Below are positions 3,477-12,359 of a stretch of 21,075 bases of DNA, one piece after another; the stretch's first letter is position 1, and the number at the start of each line of letters is the position of its first letter. The stretch is from the IMG/VR virus record IMGVR_UViG_3300006810_000506, positions 1 through 21,075 of that record. One strand, given 5' to 3'. Position numbers and translations under genes: made by a program. The stretch comes from a virus. The notes under the pieces are model-generated. The model had not been told where the DNA came from, ran no database searches, and saw only the letters and a program-made list of their open reading frames with translations.

Positions 3477-3895
3477 CACTAGACGATTTAAAACTTCAGC
3501 TTGTTAAACATGAAGGGCTAGAGCTGATGCCGTACAAATGTACTGCTGGCAAGCTCACTATCGGGGTTGGTCGTAACATCGAGGATCGTGGTATCAGCTA
3601 TGCAGAGGCCATGATGCTGCTTGAGAATGACTTGATGCTGTACTCGTCTGAGCTAGGCAAAGCCTTCCCGATTGTCAGAGAGCTTAATACTGTGCGCAAG
3701 ATGACTTTGATCAACATGGCATTCAACCTGGGGCTGACTAAACTACGTCAGTTCAAGATGATGTGGGCTGCCATCGAGGACAATGATTTTGAAGTGGCTG
3801 CTCAAGAAATGCTTAATAGTAAGTGGGCTAGTGATGTGGGCAAGAGAGCACTTGAACTCAGTGAACAAATGAGAACTGGACTCTACAATGCGTGA
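3473..3895 (+). CDS. Endolysin, T4-type GH24 lysozyme, 140 aa
   Basis: This muramidase cleaves the N-acetylmuramic acid to N-acetylglucosamine linkage of peptidoglycan. The catalytic signature E-x8-(D/C)-x5-T is present as Glu14 (KHEGL), Cys23 and Thr29 (GKLTIGVGRN), with Cys at the middle position as in a subset of GH24 endolysins. NMAFNLGL at about residues 80-87 and the C-terminal SKWA..VGKRA region match the family's second lobe. At 140 residues it is slightly shorter than T4 lysozyme. There is no signal peptide or SAR segment, so release should depend on the holin just upstream, whose stop overlaps this ATG. SD AGGGG lies five bases before the start. Confidence 0.93.
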   Translation: MTLDDLKLQLVKHEGLELMPYKCTAGKLTIGVGRNIEDRGISYAEAMMLLENDLMLYSSELGKAFPIVRELNTVRKMTLINMAFNLGLTKLRQFKMMWAAIEDNDFEVAAQEMLNSKWASDVGKRALELSEQMRTGLYNA

Positions 3896-4157
3896 GAAAA
3901 GAAAAAACGGACTGCTAGGTCGTATCGGAGTATCAGGCTACAACAAGCCTAAGCGTACTCCGAATCATCCCACTAAAAGCCATGTAGTCGTGGCTAAAGA
4001 GGGCGGCAAGACTAAGACCATACGCTTTGGTCAACAAGGCGTTACAGGCTCTCCTGACGGCTCTAAACGCAACAAAGCATTCAAGGCTAGACACGCTAAG
4101 AATATTGCCAAAGGCAAAATGTCTGCTGCTTACTGGGCCAACAAGACTAAGTGGTGA
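3888..4157 (+). CDS. Basic DUF6321-like phage protein, 89 aa
   Basis: This 89-residue, Lys/Arg-rich protein starts eight bases inside the lysozyme gene. Conserved-looking blocks are GVSGYNKPKRTPNHPTKSH, KTKTIRFGQQGVTGSP and the C-terminal FKARHAKNIAKGKMSAAYW. I recognise these blocks as a widespread phage family of unknown function (DUF6321, from memory). The pattern of a small beta domain followed by a basic helical tail suggests binding to nucleic acid or to a virion surface, but no enzyme motif is present. It is the last gene of this plus-strand block; a promoter and terminator follow within 140 bases. Confidence 0.8.
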   Translation: MREKRKNGLLGRIGVSGYNKPKRTPNHPTKSHVVVAKEGGKTKTIRFGQQGVTGSPDGSKRNKAFKARHAKNIAKGKMSAAYWANKTKW

Positions 4158-4163
4158 TACTTG

Positions 4164-4191
4164 TAGACAGCCAAGATTGATTGTGTATAGT
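4164..4191 (+). promoter_or_regulatory. sigma70-like promoter P1
   Basis: TAGACA (4164-4169, 5 of 6 to TTGACA) is followed by a 16-base spacer and TATAGT (4186-4191, 5 of 6 to TATAAT). The predicted start is near 4197-4198. The 10-mer TTGTGTATAG at 4181-4190 recurs exactly at 20310-20319 in front of the coat gene. Confidence 0.6.
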
Positions 4192-4196
4192 TAATC

Positions 4197-4291
4197 CATC
4201 GTTCCCGCAAAGGTCGATGTTTCTGATTCTTTTTTCATCAGATTTTCCTTTAGTTGACTTAGCCCCGTATCCTCTACGGGGCATTTTTTTG
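4197..4291 (+). ncRNA. Candidate phage small RNA 1, about 95 nt
   Basis: The stretch begins about six bases after promoter P1 and ends in a strong terminator, with no credible gene inside. Predicted hairpins are CATCG 4197-4201 with CGATG 4215-4219, and TCTGAT 4222-4227 with ATCAGA 4237-4242 around a U-rich nine-base loop. The terminator stem is the third. The linker at 4243-4261 is left unpaired and reads TTTTCCTTTAGTTG at 4243-4256. Thirteen of those bases (4244-4256) are the exact reverse complement of 10458-10470, the SD region of gene 10479. U-rich stretches could serve Hfq. Existence is inferred from promoter, folds and terminator; regulation is a hypothesis. Confidence 0.55.
4262..4290 (+). 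terminator. Rho-independent terminator
   Basis: GCCCCGTA (4262-4269) pairs perfectly with TACGGGGC (4275-4282) around TCCTC, followed by A and seven Ts (4284-4290). It also stops read-through from the lysis operon. The T-run exists only on the plus strand. Confidence 0.92.
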
Positions 4292-4336: not shown

Positions 4337-4364
4337 TTGTTAAGTACGTTTAACATGCTATAGT
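4337..4364 (+). promoter_or_regulatory. sigma70-like promoter P2 with extended -10
   Basis: TTGTTA (4337-4342), a 16-base spacer, and TATAGT (4359-4364) preceded by TGC, giving an extended -10. The predicted start is near 4371. It is the only strong promoter between the two terminators. A CACTTAAA direct repeat (4310-4317 and 4324-4331) lies just upstream and may be a binding site. Confidence 0.6.
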
Positions 4365-4370
4365 TAGCTT

Positions 4371-4483
4371 ACTCCTTGAGCTTGAAGTTGTAGTTGGCAC
4401 ATTTGCTCCTTTGCTCTCAAGGATAAGCCCCCTATCCCTTCACTCTCCTGTGATTTGGATGTATTTGCAAGGGGGCTTTTTTA
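4371..4483 (+). ncRNA. Candidate phage small RNA 2, about 110 nt
   Basis: This second unit runs from promoter P2 to a T-run. CCTTGAG (4374-4380) pairs perfectly with CTCAAGG (4416-4422) across a 35-base loop that contains CTCCTTT at 4406-4412. That heptamer is complementary to an AAAGGAG Shine-Dalgarno site, for example the one before the gene starting at 6492. The 3' domain is a long terminator hairpin with nested stems ATCC/GGAT and TCAC/GTGA. No plausible gene lies inside. Its 3' end touches the stop codon of the convergent methyltransferase gene. Confidence rests on the promoter, two folds and terminator; a target is not established. Confidence 0.5.
4425..4482 (+). terminator. Terminator with a large structured loop
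   Basis: AAGCCCCCT (4425-4433) pairs with AGGGGGCTT (4470-4478), and the T-run spans 4477-4482. The 36-base loop contains its own stem TCAC 4440-4443 with GTGA 4450-4453. It is directional for the plus strand: the minus-strand side has no T-run. Confidence 0.75.
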
Positions 4484-5365
4484 TGCCTGATATTCCATGT
4501 AAGCCTTTATGATTTCCGCTGCGACTTGCGGGACAATGGCGTTACCTGCTCCCCTGAGTAAGCCCACTCGATTGGGTATCCCATAAGCCAAAGGGAAAAG
4601 CGCGGGTTCAGTTGGGATTTCTCTCCATTTGCCATCTCGGCATTGAATGGCACTTGATCCTTGATGTTGCTGCATCCAGCTTTTTGCTTTGCTCTTGCTA
4701 GAGCCTCGTCCGATCTCGGAGCCATCGAGTCCATCGCATTCGGTGTTCCCCAGGGAACCATTACTGGAGCAAAGTTGGCTAACTGTCCCATGTGCGCTCT
4801 CTCTCCGTTCTCCATCTTCTTGATGGTATTTGGAATGCTGTTGGCTCCCTTGTAATCCCTTGCTGCTGGCGTTGGCCACGAAGAAAAGTCGTTCCCTTTT
4901 GTGCGGGGCACCGACGCTGCAAGCTGGCAATACTGCCATTGCTGTGGCGTAACCTTCTGCTTCCATGTCAGCTTGTAGATCATCGAACCACTCTGTTCTA
5001 ATTGCTGAGGCAACTTGCTCGCCAAATACTGTTGGAGGCGAACACTCTCTGATGAGATTGAAGAAGTGAGGCCAGAGGTGTCGCTCATCTTCTTGGGCTT
5101 TTCCACTTCCGGCAACTGAGAAAGGCTGACAGGGTGGTGATCCTGTCCAAACAGGTCGAGCTGATTCCCATCCTGCGAGTTGGAGAGCATAGCTCCAACC
5201 TCCGATTCCAGCGAAGAAATGACATTGCGTAAACCCTTCAAGGTCTGAAGGATCGACATCAATGATTGATCGTTCATCGACTTCCCCTTGTGGTATTAAC
5301 CCATCAGCAATGAGCTGGCGTAACCAGCTCGCTGCAAATGGATCGAACTCGTTATAATAGTTCAT
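4481..5365 (-). CDS. DNA (cytosine-5) methyltransferase, 294 aa
   Basis: This protein transfers a methyl group from SAM to C5 of cytosine in DNA. Visible motifs: motif I FFAGIGG (50-56, SAM binding), motif IV GSPPCQPFS with catalytic Cys79, motif VI as FGEQV (Glu-Gln-Val instead of the usual ENV), and motif VIII as APHKRERLFFVA (near 155-165). A Gly/Ser/Lys-rich target-recognition region covers about 170-250, and motif X is GNAIVPQVA near the end. It starts at the stop of the SSB-like gene (TAATG). No restriction enzyme is adjacent, so it probably protects phage DNA or regulates. Most of the gene is also open in another frame that looks genuine. Confidence 0.93.
   Translation of the reverse strand: MNYYNEFDPFAASWLRQLIADGLIPQGEVDERSIIDVDPSDLEGFTQCHFFAGIGGWSYALQLAGWESARPVWTGSPPCQPFSVAGSGKAQEDERHLWPHFFNLIRECSPPTVFGEQVASAIRTEWFDDLQADMEAEGYATAMAVLPACSVGAPHKRERLFFVANASSKGLQGSQQHSKYHQEDGERRESAHGTVSQLCSSNGSLGNTECDGLDGSEIGRGSSKSKAKSWMQQHQGSSAIQCRDGKWREIPTEPALFPLAYGIPNRVGLLRGAGNAIVPQVAAEIIKAYMEYQA
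4507..5277 (-). CDS. Overlapping-frame protein inside the methyltransferase gene, 256 aa
   Basis: This frame lies wholly inside the C5-methyltransferase gene, shifted +1, and stays open for 256 codons. ATG 5277 has SD AAGGGG six bases upstream. Its product has recognisable blocks: LDLFGQ (about 41-46), IYKLTWKQKVTP, SWPTPAARDYKG and NPRFSLWLMGYPIEWAYSGE near the C-terminus. I remember very similar proteins, usually hypothetical, encoded in the alternative frame of phage and prophage methyltransferase genes, so it appears conserved as a protein. Function unknown; a methyltransferase partner or specificity factor is conceivable. The alternative is a shadow frame kept open by constraint on the enzyme, but the blocks and the SD argue against that. 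Confidence 0.6.
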   Translation of the reverse strand: MNDQSLMSILQTLKGLRNVISSLESEVGAMLSNSQDGNQLDLFGQDHHPVSLSQLPEVEKPKKMSDTSGLTSSISSESVRLQQYLASKLPQQLEQSGSMIYKLTWKQKVTPQQWQYCQLAASVPRTKGNDFSSWPTPAARDYKGANSIPNTIKKMENGERAHMGQLANFAPVMVPWGTPNAMDSMAPRSDEALARAKQKAGCSNIKDQVPFNAEMANGEKSQLNPRFSLWLMGYPIEWAYSGEQVTPLSRKSQRKS

Positions 5366-6492: not shown

Positions 6493-6680
6493 AGTTTCTC
6501 CTTTAGGTTGTTGATCATGCAGTTCAACTTCCATTCCATCATGGAGTCGTCTGCGAAGTACTTAGTGTCCACCAATACCTGCAAGGCATTGATAGCCATC
6601 CACACATCATGCTCTGGCGGCATGTCAAATGGTTCTGAGATGTAATCGTTCTCAGTGTAAAGCTCGTCTATCTTCGTCAT
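6489..6680 (-). CDS. Hypothetical acidic protein, 63 aa
   Basis: This 63-residue, mostly helical acidic protein has no signal peptide or membrane segment. Its stop is fused with the next start (ATGA at 6492-6489), implying coupled translation with the annealing protein. It starts 29 bases inside the previous gene with no clear SD, so it may be read by re-initiation. I do not recognise a family; it is probably a small accessory of the recombination operon. Confidence 0.6.
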   Translation of the reverse strand: MTKIDELYTENDYISEPFDMPPEHDVWMAINALQVLVDTKYFADDSMMEWKLNCMINNLKEKL

Positions 6681-6981: not shown

Positions 6982-7165
6982 AAGCGGCCTCCACAAAAAG
7001 TTTGTATTCAAAGAACTCCGGAACTGTCATGGCGAACTCGCACATAGCTGACTTGTCGTTCTGTAAGTTCAGTTCAAGTGCTGCAATGTTGTAAGTAGTG
7101 CAGCGATCTAATGCCTTTTCGTAGTCAGGATGACCGTAGTTGAGGCGGGTAGATATCTGGTACAT
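6962..7165 (-). CDS. First gene of the minus-strand early operon, hypothetical, 67 aa
   Basis: This gene is promoter-proximal in the minus-strand operon. SD GGAGG (7172-7176 on the opposite strand) is six bases before the ATG. The 67-residue product looks globular and mixed, with no membrane segment. Its C-terminal half is hydrophobic and helical (VPEFFEYKLFVEAAYVLANA). I do not recognise it. As the first gene after the divergent promoter it is probably made early, like small host-takeover or regulatory proteins, but that is only positional inference. Confidence 0.6.
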   Translation of the reverse strand: MYQISTRLNYGHPDYEKALDRCTTYNIAALELNLQNDKSAMCEFAMTVPEFFEYKLFVEAAYVLANA

Positions 7166-7191: not shown

Positions 7192-7220
7192 AAGATAGCC
7201 TAACAAATGTTATCTTGCAA
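7192..7220 (-). promoter_or_regulatory. Promoter of the minus-strand operon
   Basis: On the minus strand TTGCAA (7220-7215) is followed by 17 bases and TATCTT (7197-7192), each 4 of 6 to consensus. The predicted start is near 7185, about 20 bases before the ATG. The -35 is one of the three TTGCAA palindromes, so binding there should block it. Confidence 0.5.
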
Positions 7221-7243
7221 CCCCTATTGCAAAAGTTTAAAAG
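7215..7243 (+). promoter_or_regulatory. Possible promoter of the plus-strand early operon
   Basis: TTGCAA (7215-7220), a 17-base spacer and TAAAAG (7238-7243) are each 4 of 6 to consensus. It would share its -35 palindrome with the divergent promoter, giving back-to-back control. Weak boxes make this tentative. Confidence 0.3.
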
Positions 7244-7263
7244 CTCACCTAATCTATTGCAAA
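7215..7263. promoter_or_regulatory. Operator-like cluster of three TTGCAA palindromes
   Basis: TTGCAA occurs at 7215-7220, 7227-7232 and 7257-7262. The last two sit in identical decamers CTATTGCAAA spaced 30 bases apart. TTGCAA is its own reverse complement. They overlap the predicted divergent promoters and precede a small regulator-like gene, so they are likely repressor sites. The binding protein is inferred to be that gene's product. Confidence 0.5.
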
Positions 7264-7294
7264 CAATTACTCACAACTAAAGACAGGAGTCATT

Positions 7295-7471
7295 ATGGAA
7301 CAACCCTCACTCTATCTAAAGATTCAGCAGCAGCTCTCAGATCGAAACCTGTCGATTGTTGCAGAGCGCACTGGCATTGATCAGCACAAGCTATGGCGTA
7401 TAGCGCGTGGTGTATCGAAGCGCCCGAAACTAGAGGACATTGAAAAGATAATGCGTTACCTGGAGGGCTAA
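7295..7471 (+). CDS. Small HTH regulator, 58 aa
   Basis: ATG 7295 is preceded by SD AGGAG (7285-7289). The 58-residue protein has the layout of a minimal Cro/CI-type helix-turn-helix. Residues about 18-40 read NLSIVAERTGIDQHKLWRIARG, where VAERTG begins the first helix and HKLWRIARG is the recognition helix. A C-terminal helix DIEKIMRYLEG follows. The size leaves no dimerisation or cleavage domain, so it resembles Cro more than CI. It sits beside three TTGCAA palindromes and opens the plus-strand early operon, so autoregulation and control of the divergent operon are likely. A short leader motif, CACAACTAAAG, lies just before its SD. Confidence 0.75.
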   Translation: MEQPSLYLKIQQQLSDRNLSIVAERTGIDQHKLWRIARGVSKRPKLEDIEKIMRYLEG

Positions 7472-10443: not shown

Positions 10444-10470
10444 GTGTCAATACGACACAACTAAAGGAAA
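10444..10470 (+). promoter_or_regulatory. Leader with hairpin and sRNA-complementary SD
   Basis: GTGTC (10444-10448) pairs with GACAC (10454-10458). Just after it CAACTAAAGGAAA (10458-10470) contains the SD-like AAGGA and is a perfect complement to bases 4244-4256 of small RNA 1. CACAACTAAAG (10456-10466) is also found at 7272-7282 before the other early plus-strand operon. Confidence 0.55.
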
Positions 10471-10478
10471 TTAAGAAA

Positions 10479-10673
10479 ATGAAATACGAAACAACAATAT
10501 CAAAATCAGGTGAATACGTTTTGGCGTGGTACTGCGAAGGCGTTCAGGTTTCAGTGTTTGATAGTGATACTGAGCTACAAATGTTTAAGGACTATTTGTT
10601 TGATGAGCTATACAAGGACAAAAAAGAATTGACCCGTGATGAGTTATATAACCGTTGGGGGCTTTCACTATGA
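10479..10673 (+). CDS. Hypothetical protein, first gene of the cassette, 64 aa
   Basis: ATG 10479 follows AAGGA by ten bases. The 64-residue protein has a predicted beta-rich N-terminal half (GEYVLAWYCEGVQVSVFDSD) and a helical acidic end. No membrane segment or named motif is present. Its leader is the best complement to small RNA 1, so it may be the target. The stop overlaps the next start (ATGA). Function unknown. Confidence 0.65.
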   Translation: MKYETTISKSGEYVLAWYCEGVQVSVFDSDTELQMFKDYLFDELYKDKKELTRDELYNRWGLSL

Positions 10674-11128
10674 ACAATTATTCAGAAGAGCAAATTAAAA
10701 AGGCTTTACACCAATTTATTGATGATCCCGAAACTGCAAAGCGTTTTGCGGCTGCAATGCGTGAAGGCTTAGAAATTGCAGAAATGGAAAGCGAAAGCCA
10801 CCCATTTGAGGATGAAGACGAATCAGCCCTTAAAGAGTTGAACGCCGAGCTTCAGGAGTTGATGGAGCTTCAAGGCTTCACCCTTTGGCAAACCGGCGGC
10901 GGCTGTACTGCTTGGGGCAAGTATCTATTGGGCGGCAACGATGACAAATCCCCATATATGATGATTGCGCTAGATGATTGCTCAGAGTTTACAACTTTAG
11001 CTGAGGCGCATAGAAAAGACGCTCTAATGGTTTGTTGTTATACGCCCGAGGGCGAGGAATTAATAGGTCATAAACCTATTTGTTACTCATGGGATGAATT
11101 CAAAAACAACTTTAAAGGGGGCTTCTAA
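10670..11128 (+). CDS. Hypothetical acidic protein, 152 aa
   Basis: The start is the ATG overlapping the previous stop (10670), rather than a TTG further up. The N-terminal 40 residues (about YSEEQIKKALHQFIDDPETAKRFAAAMREGLE) share the pattern ETAK-x-FA-x-AMR-x-GL with a stand-alone 36-residue gene at 11812. The C-terminal region (GFTLWQTGGGCTAWGKYL..., near 75-150) has paired cysteines and aromatic residues and looks like a compact mixed fold. I remember similar C-terminal domains in phage and plasmid proteins, but with no function. It overlaps the next start as TAATG. Confidence 0.65.
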   Translation: MNNYSEEQIKKALHQFIDDPETAKRFAAAMREGLEIAEMESESHPFEDEDESALKELNAELQELMELQGFTLWQTGGGCTAWGKYLLGGNDDKSPYMMIALDDCSEFTTLAEAHRKDALMVCCYTPEGEELIGHKPICYSWDEFKNNFKGGF

Positions 11129-11325
11129 TGCTTAACGTCATCGTAATGCCTAAGTTAACAGTGCCAATGGCTGAGTTGGAGAAGTTTGACCGTGAACAAG
11201 CCAATCAAATGCTATGGGCTGCCATAGATAAGGTGCGCGACATGGACGCAGAAGAACTAAAGCAATTAGTTATAGACGGCTTGCAGGATGCAGACGGATA
11301 CCCTAACGACTTTGCGGAGTACTAA
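11128..11325 (+). CDS. Hypothetical acidic protein, 65 aa
   Basis: This 65-residue helical acidic protein starts within the previous stop codon, with a GGGGG run upstream as a possible SD. The centre (QANQMLWAAIDKVRDMDAEELKQLVIDGLQDAD) is amphipathic. Nothing suggests a membrane or enzyme role. Three bases separate it from the next gene. It is probably a small accessory protein of the cassette; no family is recognised. Confidence 0.6.
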   Translation: MLNVIVMPKLTVPMAELEKFDREQANQMLWAAIDKVRDMDAEELKQLVIDGLQDADGYPNDFAEY

Positions 11326-11327
11326 TA

Positions 11328-11603
11328 ATGGAAAAATATAATGGTTGGACTAACTACGAAACTTGGCGCACGGCTTTGGAGTTTGTGGATAATGATTATT
11401 ATGCGGATGCAGACTTCGAAGATTGTGACGGTCTAGCGGACTATATCCGCGACACCGTGACGGAATTTGTCTTTAACGATGCACCGGACGAAAGAGCGCC
11501 GCAAAGCGCCTTCGAGTCTTTAGGGTCAAGCCTAATCACTCAGTTTTTTAATGCGGTGAATTGGTACGAAATAGCCGAACATATCAAGGAGTGCGCAGCA
11601 TGA
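11328..11603 (+). CDS. NYETW-motif (DUF7249-like) protein, 91 aa
   Basis: The N-terminal block NGWTNYETWRTALEF is the hallmark of a family I know from phages and plasmids (DUF7249, from memory). It is followed by LADYIRDTVTEFV and ends with AVNWYEIAEHI, all in the family order. The 91-residue length fits. No activity is established. Its presence beside another phage/plasmid family (gene 11919) suggests this cassette is a mobile group of accessory genes. The stop overlaps the next start (ATGA). Confidence 0.75.
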   Translation: MEKYNGWTNYETWRTALEFVDNDYYADADFEDCDGLADYIRDTVTEFVFNDAPDERAPQSAFESLGSSLITQFFNAVNWYEIAEHIKECAA

Positions 11604-11815
11604 ATAAGTACCGCGTAGACATTGATTTGACTAGCTTCACTTATTACGTTGAAGCTAGCACCGAAGAAACCGCCAAAGACTTGGCTTATAAAGCCGCTCT
11701 TACTTGGTTAATGGATTATGACGCTGAGATTGAGCAAATTACAGCAAACATGGAAAACGATTGGATTGATGATGCGGACATTGAGCTAAGCGAGCGTGAA
11801 GAGGTGGAAGCATGA
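11600..11815 (+). CDS. Hypothetical acidic protein, 71 aa
   Basis: Start chosen at ATG 11600, eight bases after SD AAGGAG and fused to the preceding stop; an upstream TTG is less likely. The N-terminal RVDIDLTSFTYYVEASTEETAKDLAYKAALTW has alternating strand and helix segments, like small regulatory or nucleic-acid-mimic proteins. The remainder is strongly acidic. The ETAKDLA core resembles the ETAK motif of its neighbours, perhaps by chance. Function unknown. Confidence 0.65.
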   Translation: MNKYRVDIDLTSFTYYVEASTEETAKDLAYKAALTWLMDYDAEIEQITANMENDWIDDADIELSEREEVEA

Positions 11816-11922
11816 ACCGCAAAACAGTCGATCAAGTCTTAAAGCAATACTTCGGGGATAAAGAAACCGCTAAGAAATTCGCCGAGGCAATGCGAAAAGG
11901 ATTAAAGGAGCGTAAACAATGA
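11812..11922 (+). CDS. Very short paralogue of the 10670 N-terminal module, 36 aa
   Basis: The gene starts at ATG 11812 (ATGA overlap) and stops at TGA 11920-11922, where the next gene starts. Its 36 residues include FGDKETAKKFAEAMRKGLKE, close to the N-terminal module of the 10670 product (DDPETAKRFAAAMREGLEI). A stand-alone copy suggests gene-fragment duplication or a regulatory peptide that competes with the full-length protein. Confidence 0.55.
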   Translation: MNRKTVDQVLKQYFGDKETAKKFAEAMRKGLKERKQ

Positions 11923-12359
11923 TTAAACAAGAAACAATCCAAGCATACACCATTGATCAGCATCCTAATAAGGAAGCCGTTTTTGATTGGGTGCGTAATA
12001 ATTGGCATGATTTAGGCGAATTTGCCGTTAATGAGTTTATCGATTCACTAAAGGCGCTAGCTGATGAAATTGAGGGCGAATTAGATTATTCGGTAGGGCT
12101 ATTTCCCGATAGGGGCGAGCATATAACCTTTAAATGGTATAACAAAAAAGCCCTGAATGAATTAGACCCTAGCTTAATGCCGTTAACGGGTGTTTGTTGG
12201 GATCATTTAGTTATTCAAGCATTACAAGAAGGAAATATTGAGCATTCCCTTAGCTTTTTGCATGATGAGGGCGAATATATTTATTCGGATGAAGGAATCG
12301 AGGATTTATGCGAAGCAAACGGCTATTTCTTCACTGAAGACGGGGCGTTTCACTCATGA
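11919..12359 (+). CDS. Conserved phage/plasmid accessory protein, 146 aa
   Basis: SD AAAGGAG lies eight to nine bases before the ATG. Near the N-terminus QHPNKEAVFDWVRNNWHDLGE, then VNEFIDSLKALADEIEGELDYSVG and PDRGEHITFK, make a pattern I remember from a phage and plasmid family often found beside NYETW proteins. The C-terminal half is acidic and aromatic. Its function is unknown. No catalytic triad or metal site is apparent, so I keep this as a conserved accessory protein. Confidence 0.7.
   Translation: MIKQETIQAYTIDQHPNKEAVFDWVRNNWHDLGEFAVNEFIDSLKALADEIEGELDYSVGLFPDRGEHITFKWYNKKALNELDPSLMPLTGVCWDHLVIQALQEGNIEHSLSFLHDEGEYIYSDEGIEDLCEANGYFFTEDGAFHS

Follow-up and report, generated by a model that had tools for sequence, protein, structure and literature searches.

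A CU-rich segment at the late-operon end of this virus, TTTCCTTTAGTTG at positions 4,244-4,256 of the plus strand, probably provides the site through which a small anti-Shine-Dalgarno (anti-SD) RNA pairs with its targets, as judged from structure prediction and from analogy. The segment is conserved, has conserved hairpins on either side and belongs to a design shared with other phages and with known bacterial small RNAs, which points to such a role. This RNA, here called RNA1, may thus be a phage-encoded regulator that works like NmsR, a reading to which we give about even credence. The sequence match, the predicted structure, the location of the variation and the recurrence of the design are direct observations; we infer that RNA1 is expressed, that its linker is accessible in the cell, which mRNAs it targets and that it represses them. 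Transcription of RNA1, at the late operon's end, would start at a sigma70-like promoter of its own, reach it by read-through from the operon, or both. Short hairpins and a terminator would keep open a linker complementary to Shine-Dalgarno (SD) sequences, and by pairing with these the RNA would keep ribosomes off a group of mRNAs, in the manner of NmsR in Neisseria.

Location and predicted structure of RNA1

The window, meaning the whole stretch of 21,075 nucleotides analysed here, is from a 21-kb virus record that is, by its end genes, a fragment. It encodes a lysozyme, a C5 methylase, a Sak annealing protein, a helicase and a connector protein, together with T7-type capsid genes; among annotated phage records no match to the whole window was found, and those that do match are of low identity and chiefly to methylase genes. 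Contigs L002/L009 are 100% and L006/L010 99.7% identical to the window, and the linker is repeated in them. The nearest relative is the L091 lineage (87-93% identical); L092 covers the target side without the linker side, and L097 is a sister phage with 73-81% protein identity to the window.

RNA1 lies at a convergent junction between late rightward genes, the last of which occupies 3,888-4,157, and early leftward genes, which start at 7,165. It begins 40 bases 3′ of the last late gene and has a terminator at its end. The predicted fold of positions 4,197-4,290 on the plus strand (-25.6 kcal/mol, z -4.7) consists of two hairpins (4,197-4,219 and 4,222-4,242), the linker (4,243-4,261), a terminator hairpin (4,262-4,282) and a T-run (4,284-4,290). 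A sigma70-like promoter, TAGACA-16-TATAGT (4,164-4,191, plus strand; 10 of 12 consensus matches), predicts a start near 4,197, so that the window has both a promoter-like site and an intrinsic terminator for RNA1. The L091 copy also folds (z -3.2). Its differences from the window lie in loops, at one linker base and in the terminator loop and closing pairs, and include an indel of a single base within a hairpin loop. L091 retains the terminator stem; its promoter is weak, with TTGCAA-18-TATAAA visible by eye at the same place.

The linker had been expected to be free because it lies between two hairpins. With two predicted hairpins on its 5′ side and the terminator hairpin on its 3′ side, this is what the fold indicates for a start at 4,197, where the predicted unpairedness of the TTCCT core is 0.85-0.97. 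If the start is moved one base downstream, however, an alternative fold competes in which AAGGUCGA pairs with the 3′ half of the linker, leaving the UUUUCCUUUAG part mostly open; unpairedness then averages 0.81 over the anti-SD part, and 0.57 in the relative. RNA1 is thus predicted to have the NmsR trait, a UC-rich single-stranded anti-SD region flanked by stem-loops.

A second structured RNA, RNA2 (4,373-4,488, plus strand; z -3.4), has its own terminator and, from a promoter scan, its own promoter-like site (4,337-4,364), and is conserved in L091. Since CTCCT also occurs in one of its hairpin loops (4,445-4,449), where it is predicted to be unpaired, a tandem pair as in Neisseria can be considered, with RNA2 possibly a sibling anti-SD RNA. 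The RNA2 unit (4,337-4,488) is more structured than RNA1 and almost unchanged in L091, where the loop reads TTCCT; among the 100 loci searched with an RNA2 model, no homolog was found beyond L091.

Recurrence of the design in other phages

A covariance model built from the window and L091 copies of RNA1 matches L014 and L054/L056, each time just 3′ of the lysozyme gene; weak matches of the RNA1 model in L139, L105, L132, L055 and L065 were dismissed as chance matches. The pattern GKKGAYTTA followed by a terminator occurs in about a dozen other phage families. With families grouped by eye, and with one family left out as a true minus-strand gene leader, TCTCCT is found upstream of GAYTTA-type terminators in 5 of 12 families, compared with 1 among 73 phage terminators taken without selection (Fisher p 1.3e-4). 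A tighter pattern gives 34 viral and 49 genome stretches, many of which repeat one family; on a rough count, about one random match would be expected in the viral set and a few in the genome set. The genome-set matches include host loci of PrrF (L245, L250) and of RF02278, the Betaproteobacteria toxic small RNA (L258, L264, L272), which score above the Rfam cut-offs. The phage elements in L180, L189, L211, L218 and L227 all lie 3′ of large plus-strand genes, that of L180 having a promoter with 11 of 12 consensus matches and the hairpin GACAAC-CGCA-GUUGUC before UUUCUCCUU. The L180, L189 and L211 elements had no match among annotated phage records, and a description of a phage class with hairpin, anti-SD linker and terminator was not found in the open-licence literature.

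The L211 element (7064-7127) scores 35 bits against RF02278 (E 8.9e-6); it and an element in L194 (record 35389-35447) match this model over its full length at 35-39 bits, below its cut-off. Matches of the L195/L208 type were set aside as phage examples because a conserved minus-strand gene begins at that point. In L195:8780-8860 and L208:8034-8085 a hairpin, CTAARTC and an SD form the leader of this gene (MKIP...); with a terminator T-run on the opposite strand and plus-strand promoter-like sites, the element is ambiguous between the two strands.

Might RNA1 be simply the untranslated 3′ end of the late operon with its terminator, the linker having no function in trans and its anti-SD likeness reflecting composition and chance? 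This is a quite possible explanation, though a doubtful one. It fits the place of RNA1 just past the last late gene and its terminator end, and 23 of 300 shuffled linkers equal the best interaction energy predicted for the real one. It also fits the L054 and L014 linkers, for which no convincing or significant targets were found, and the marginal CTCCT enrichment over RNA1 and RNA2 together (p 0.02-0.07). It does not sit well, however, with the phage counts given above, in which anti-SD sequence is rare before other terminators and common before those of this type, nor with the conserved extra hairpins and the promoter-like site, which a terminator does not need.

For anti-SD RNAs in phages as a broader idea, the recurrence in independent phage families and the known analogues lend support. 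A more general proposal, which we put forward tentatively and consider rather unlikely, is that many phages end their late operon with an anti-SD RNA of their own, made up of a hairpin, a CU-rich linker, GAYUUAG and a terminator. Such RNAs would be the viral equivalent of NmsR and the toxic small RNAs and would lower the translation of selected early or host mRNAs late in infection. If this is true, phages would compete for ribosome-binding sites by means of a simple, recurrent RNA, which could explain a protein-free late down-regulation of early or host translation. The anti-SD linker with its GAYUUAG terminator would then be a searchable signature for the largely unannotated intergenic regions of phages, and would supply testable targets.

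Candidate targets and their conservation

The complementarities that first drew attention to the linker are all accurate. The 13-base segment is the exact reverse complement of 10,458-10,470 on the plus strand, in the leader of gene 10479 (CAACTAAAGGAAA), and the 9 bases CTTTAGTTG at 4,248-4,256 are that of CAACTAAAG at 7,274-7,282 on the plus strand, just upstream of the SD of gene 7295 itself (AGGAG, 7,286-7,290). The minus-strand leader of gene 6492 (6,496-6,510), which encodes the Sak annealing protein, reads CAACCTAAAGGAGAA, the same motif with one extra base. With target structure costs included, the predicted interaction energies are -12.4 kcal/mol for 10479, -12.3 for 6492 and -9.8 for 7295, the best in the window.

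The original prediction allowed that 13 bases could match by chance at low frequency, and the shuffles agree, putting the frequency near 0.1% of shuffled sets. One or other of the 46 leaders was matched over 13 nt in 4 of 3,000 shuffled-leader sets and by 3 of 3,000 shuffled linkers, and is so matched by 0.08% of all window 20-mers, giving a chance frequency of about 0.1-0.3% per linker, which is uncommon, not extraordinary. Rare as such a leader match is, reverse-complement pairs of 13 nt or longer number 7 in the window as a whole, where shuffles give 3.1 ± 1.9. The match is thus uncommon yet not decisive alone, especially as the linker contains generic anti-SD sequence.

Comparison with the relatives shifts the emphasis from gene 10479 to sak. 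In both L091 and L092 the 10479 leader reads CAACTATAGGAAA, which splits the 13-mer into 6+6. The linker is unchanged in L091, which holds both sites, so that leader and linker vary independently there, the outcome that was named beforehand as refuting the prediction and that does so for this target, and the 13-base match can no longer be regarded as the key interaction, being broken in both relatives that carry this leader; a scan with the GTGTCAATACGACACAAC leader matched only the L091 contig and L092. The 7,274 site is unchanged in L091, and in the 6492 leader GGAG has become GGAA, turning a G-U pair with the linker into an A-U pair. Among the interaction energies calculated for L091, the 6492 leader is the top target at -13.0 and 10479 is down to -8.7. 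The leader comparison therefore makes 10479 the least conserved of the three sites, and in sequence terms co-conservation is better for the sak leader, which is the best-supported candidate target within the phage. We conclude that the exact 13-base match is mostly incidental; as part of the NmsR-like reading, and with the same even credence that we give to it as a whole, the fit to 10479 would be an addition, peculiar to this lineage, to an otherwise generic anti-SD sequence.

The sister phage L097 offers a further view of sak. Its late operon ends in a hairpin (GATCT/AGATC), a linker that differs from that of the window (TGCTCCTTTTAGG) and a terminator, the folded stretch not being unusually stable (z -0.8). 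Its sak leader contains AAAAGGAGCA, the reverse complement of its own linker; this 10-nt match exceeds in length every other exact match of the linker across 47 genes, 8 of 200 shuffled linkers give one as long, and by interaction energy the sak leader ranks third, with two other candidates above it. Set against the duplex in the window, A-U is replaced by C-G at one pair and G-U by G-C at another. Covariation between linker and sak leader across the window, L091 and L097 is thus suggestive, as one contrast in which the linker alignment is uncertain. In L054 no sak link was seen, the annealing gene being Erf-like with a leader that does not fit.

The surroundings of two of the sites have features of their own. 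The 10479 leader (10,444-10,482) has a hairpin, GTGTC-aatac-GACAC, just before the SD, and in L092 it precedes another gene, one homologous to the 10670 gene; the leader thus seems to persist as a unit as the genes behind it change. The genes of the cassette that follows (10,479-12,359) are small and lack known families, with one DUF7249 gene among them; the cassette is largely replaced in L091, and its first gene is missing in L092. In the divergent early control region, three TTGCAA motifs at 7,205-7,270, which are possible operators, lie upstream of a Cro/CI-like HTH gene (7,295-7,471).

It had been proposed that a single antisense site shuts off three early operons (10479, 7295 and 6492) in a coordinated and specific way by long pairing, which now appears improbable. 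The three leaders are indeed the best predicted targets in the window, their energies together being equalled by only 6 of 300 shuffled linkers, and the 7295 and 6492 sites are kept in L091, but the 10479 pairing is broken in both relatives despite the unchanged L091 linker, gene 6492 is not an operon head but an internal gene of the leftward block that starts at 7,165, and the 10479 cassette is absent or different in relatives bearing the RNA design. Still less credible is a minus-strand ribosome-binding site (CAACTAAAGGAAAATCTG-ATG) leading a small gene, with 10,458 and 4,256 marking two similar leaders: SD and ATG are well spaced on that strand, and the L195/L208 family has the same arrangement before its conserved gene, but the window frame has 15 codons only and is shifted by the one-base indel in L091, a frameshift on which minus-strand coding across RNA1 was rejected, while at this point a minus-strand gene is absent from most of the other phage examples and the terminator poly-T is on the plus strand.

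Comparison with known small RNAs

How does the anti-SD RNA proposed here relate to established families? At gathering scores, Rfam detects nothing in the window. The RNA scores 25.5 bits against PrrF (RF00444; cut-off 90), 23.9 against NmsR (RF02877; cut-off 52) and 22.1 against RF02278 (cut-off 50), so far below the cut-offs that by Rfam score it belongs to none of the three, and weak RF02278 matches are found in 13 of 14 control genomes as well. RNA1 is thus better described as probably working like NmsR or RF02278 than as being one of them. The iron-responsive PrrF, which the same search pattern recovers in L245 and L250, resembles RNA1 in layout, its pairing sequence AUUAUCUCCUC being placed 5′ of a GGAUUUAG-type terminator; it differs in being longer, host encoded and Fur controlled.

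Other phage RNAs, in the available text of one review, include PreS, VpdS, OOP, c4 and 24B_1, which act on phage or host mRNAs; these come mostly from temperate phages and have specific targets, and a generic anti-SD linker adjoining a late terminator is not among the phage small RNAs that this text describes (PMC12197685). The closest parallels are bacterial. The Betaproteobacteria toxic small RNA, or Burkholderia double-hairpin, family (RF02278) shares hairpins, unpaired CU-rich stretches and a terminator with RNA1, and differs in being chromosomal; its expression in E. coli is reported to inhibit growth (PMC4603805). Exposed CU-rich stretches complementary to ribosome-binding sites are common to these RNAs and NmsR, and expression in E. 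coli slows or prevents growth (PMC5362039, PMC4603805, PMC5688073).

Finally, the sibling RNAs NmsRA and NmsRB (RcoF) of Neisseria are bacterial, are regulated by the stringent response and have TCA-cycle targets, in all of which they differ from RNA1. They repress mRNAs by SD pairing through a single-stranded UC-rich anti-SD region between stem-loops (PMC5362039). Such a region, with a 3′ terminator, is what RNA1 is predicted to have, and NmsRA and NmsRB further form a tandem pair, recalling RNA1 with RNA2, in which UUUCUCCUUUGUAGACUUGGC resembles UUUUCCUUUAGUUGACUUAGC.
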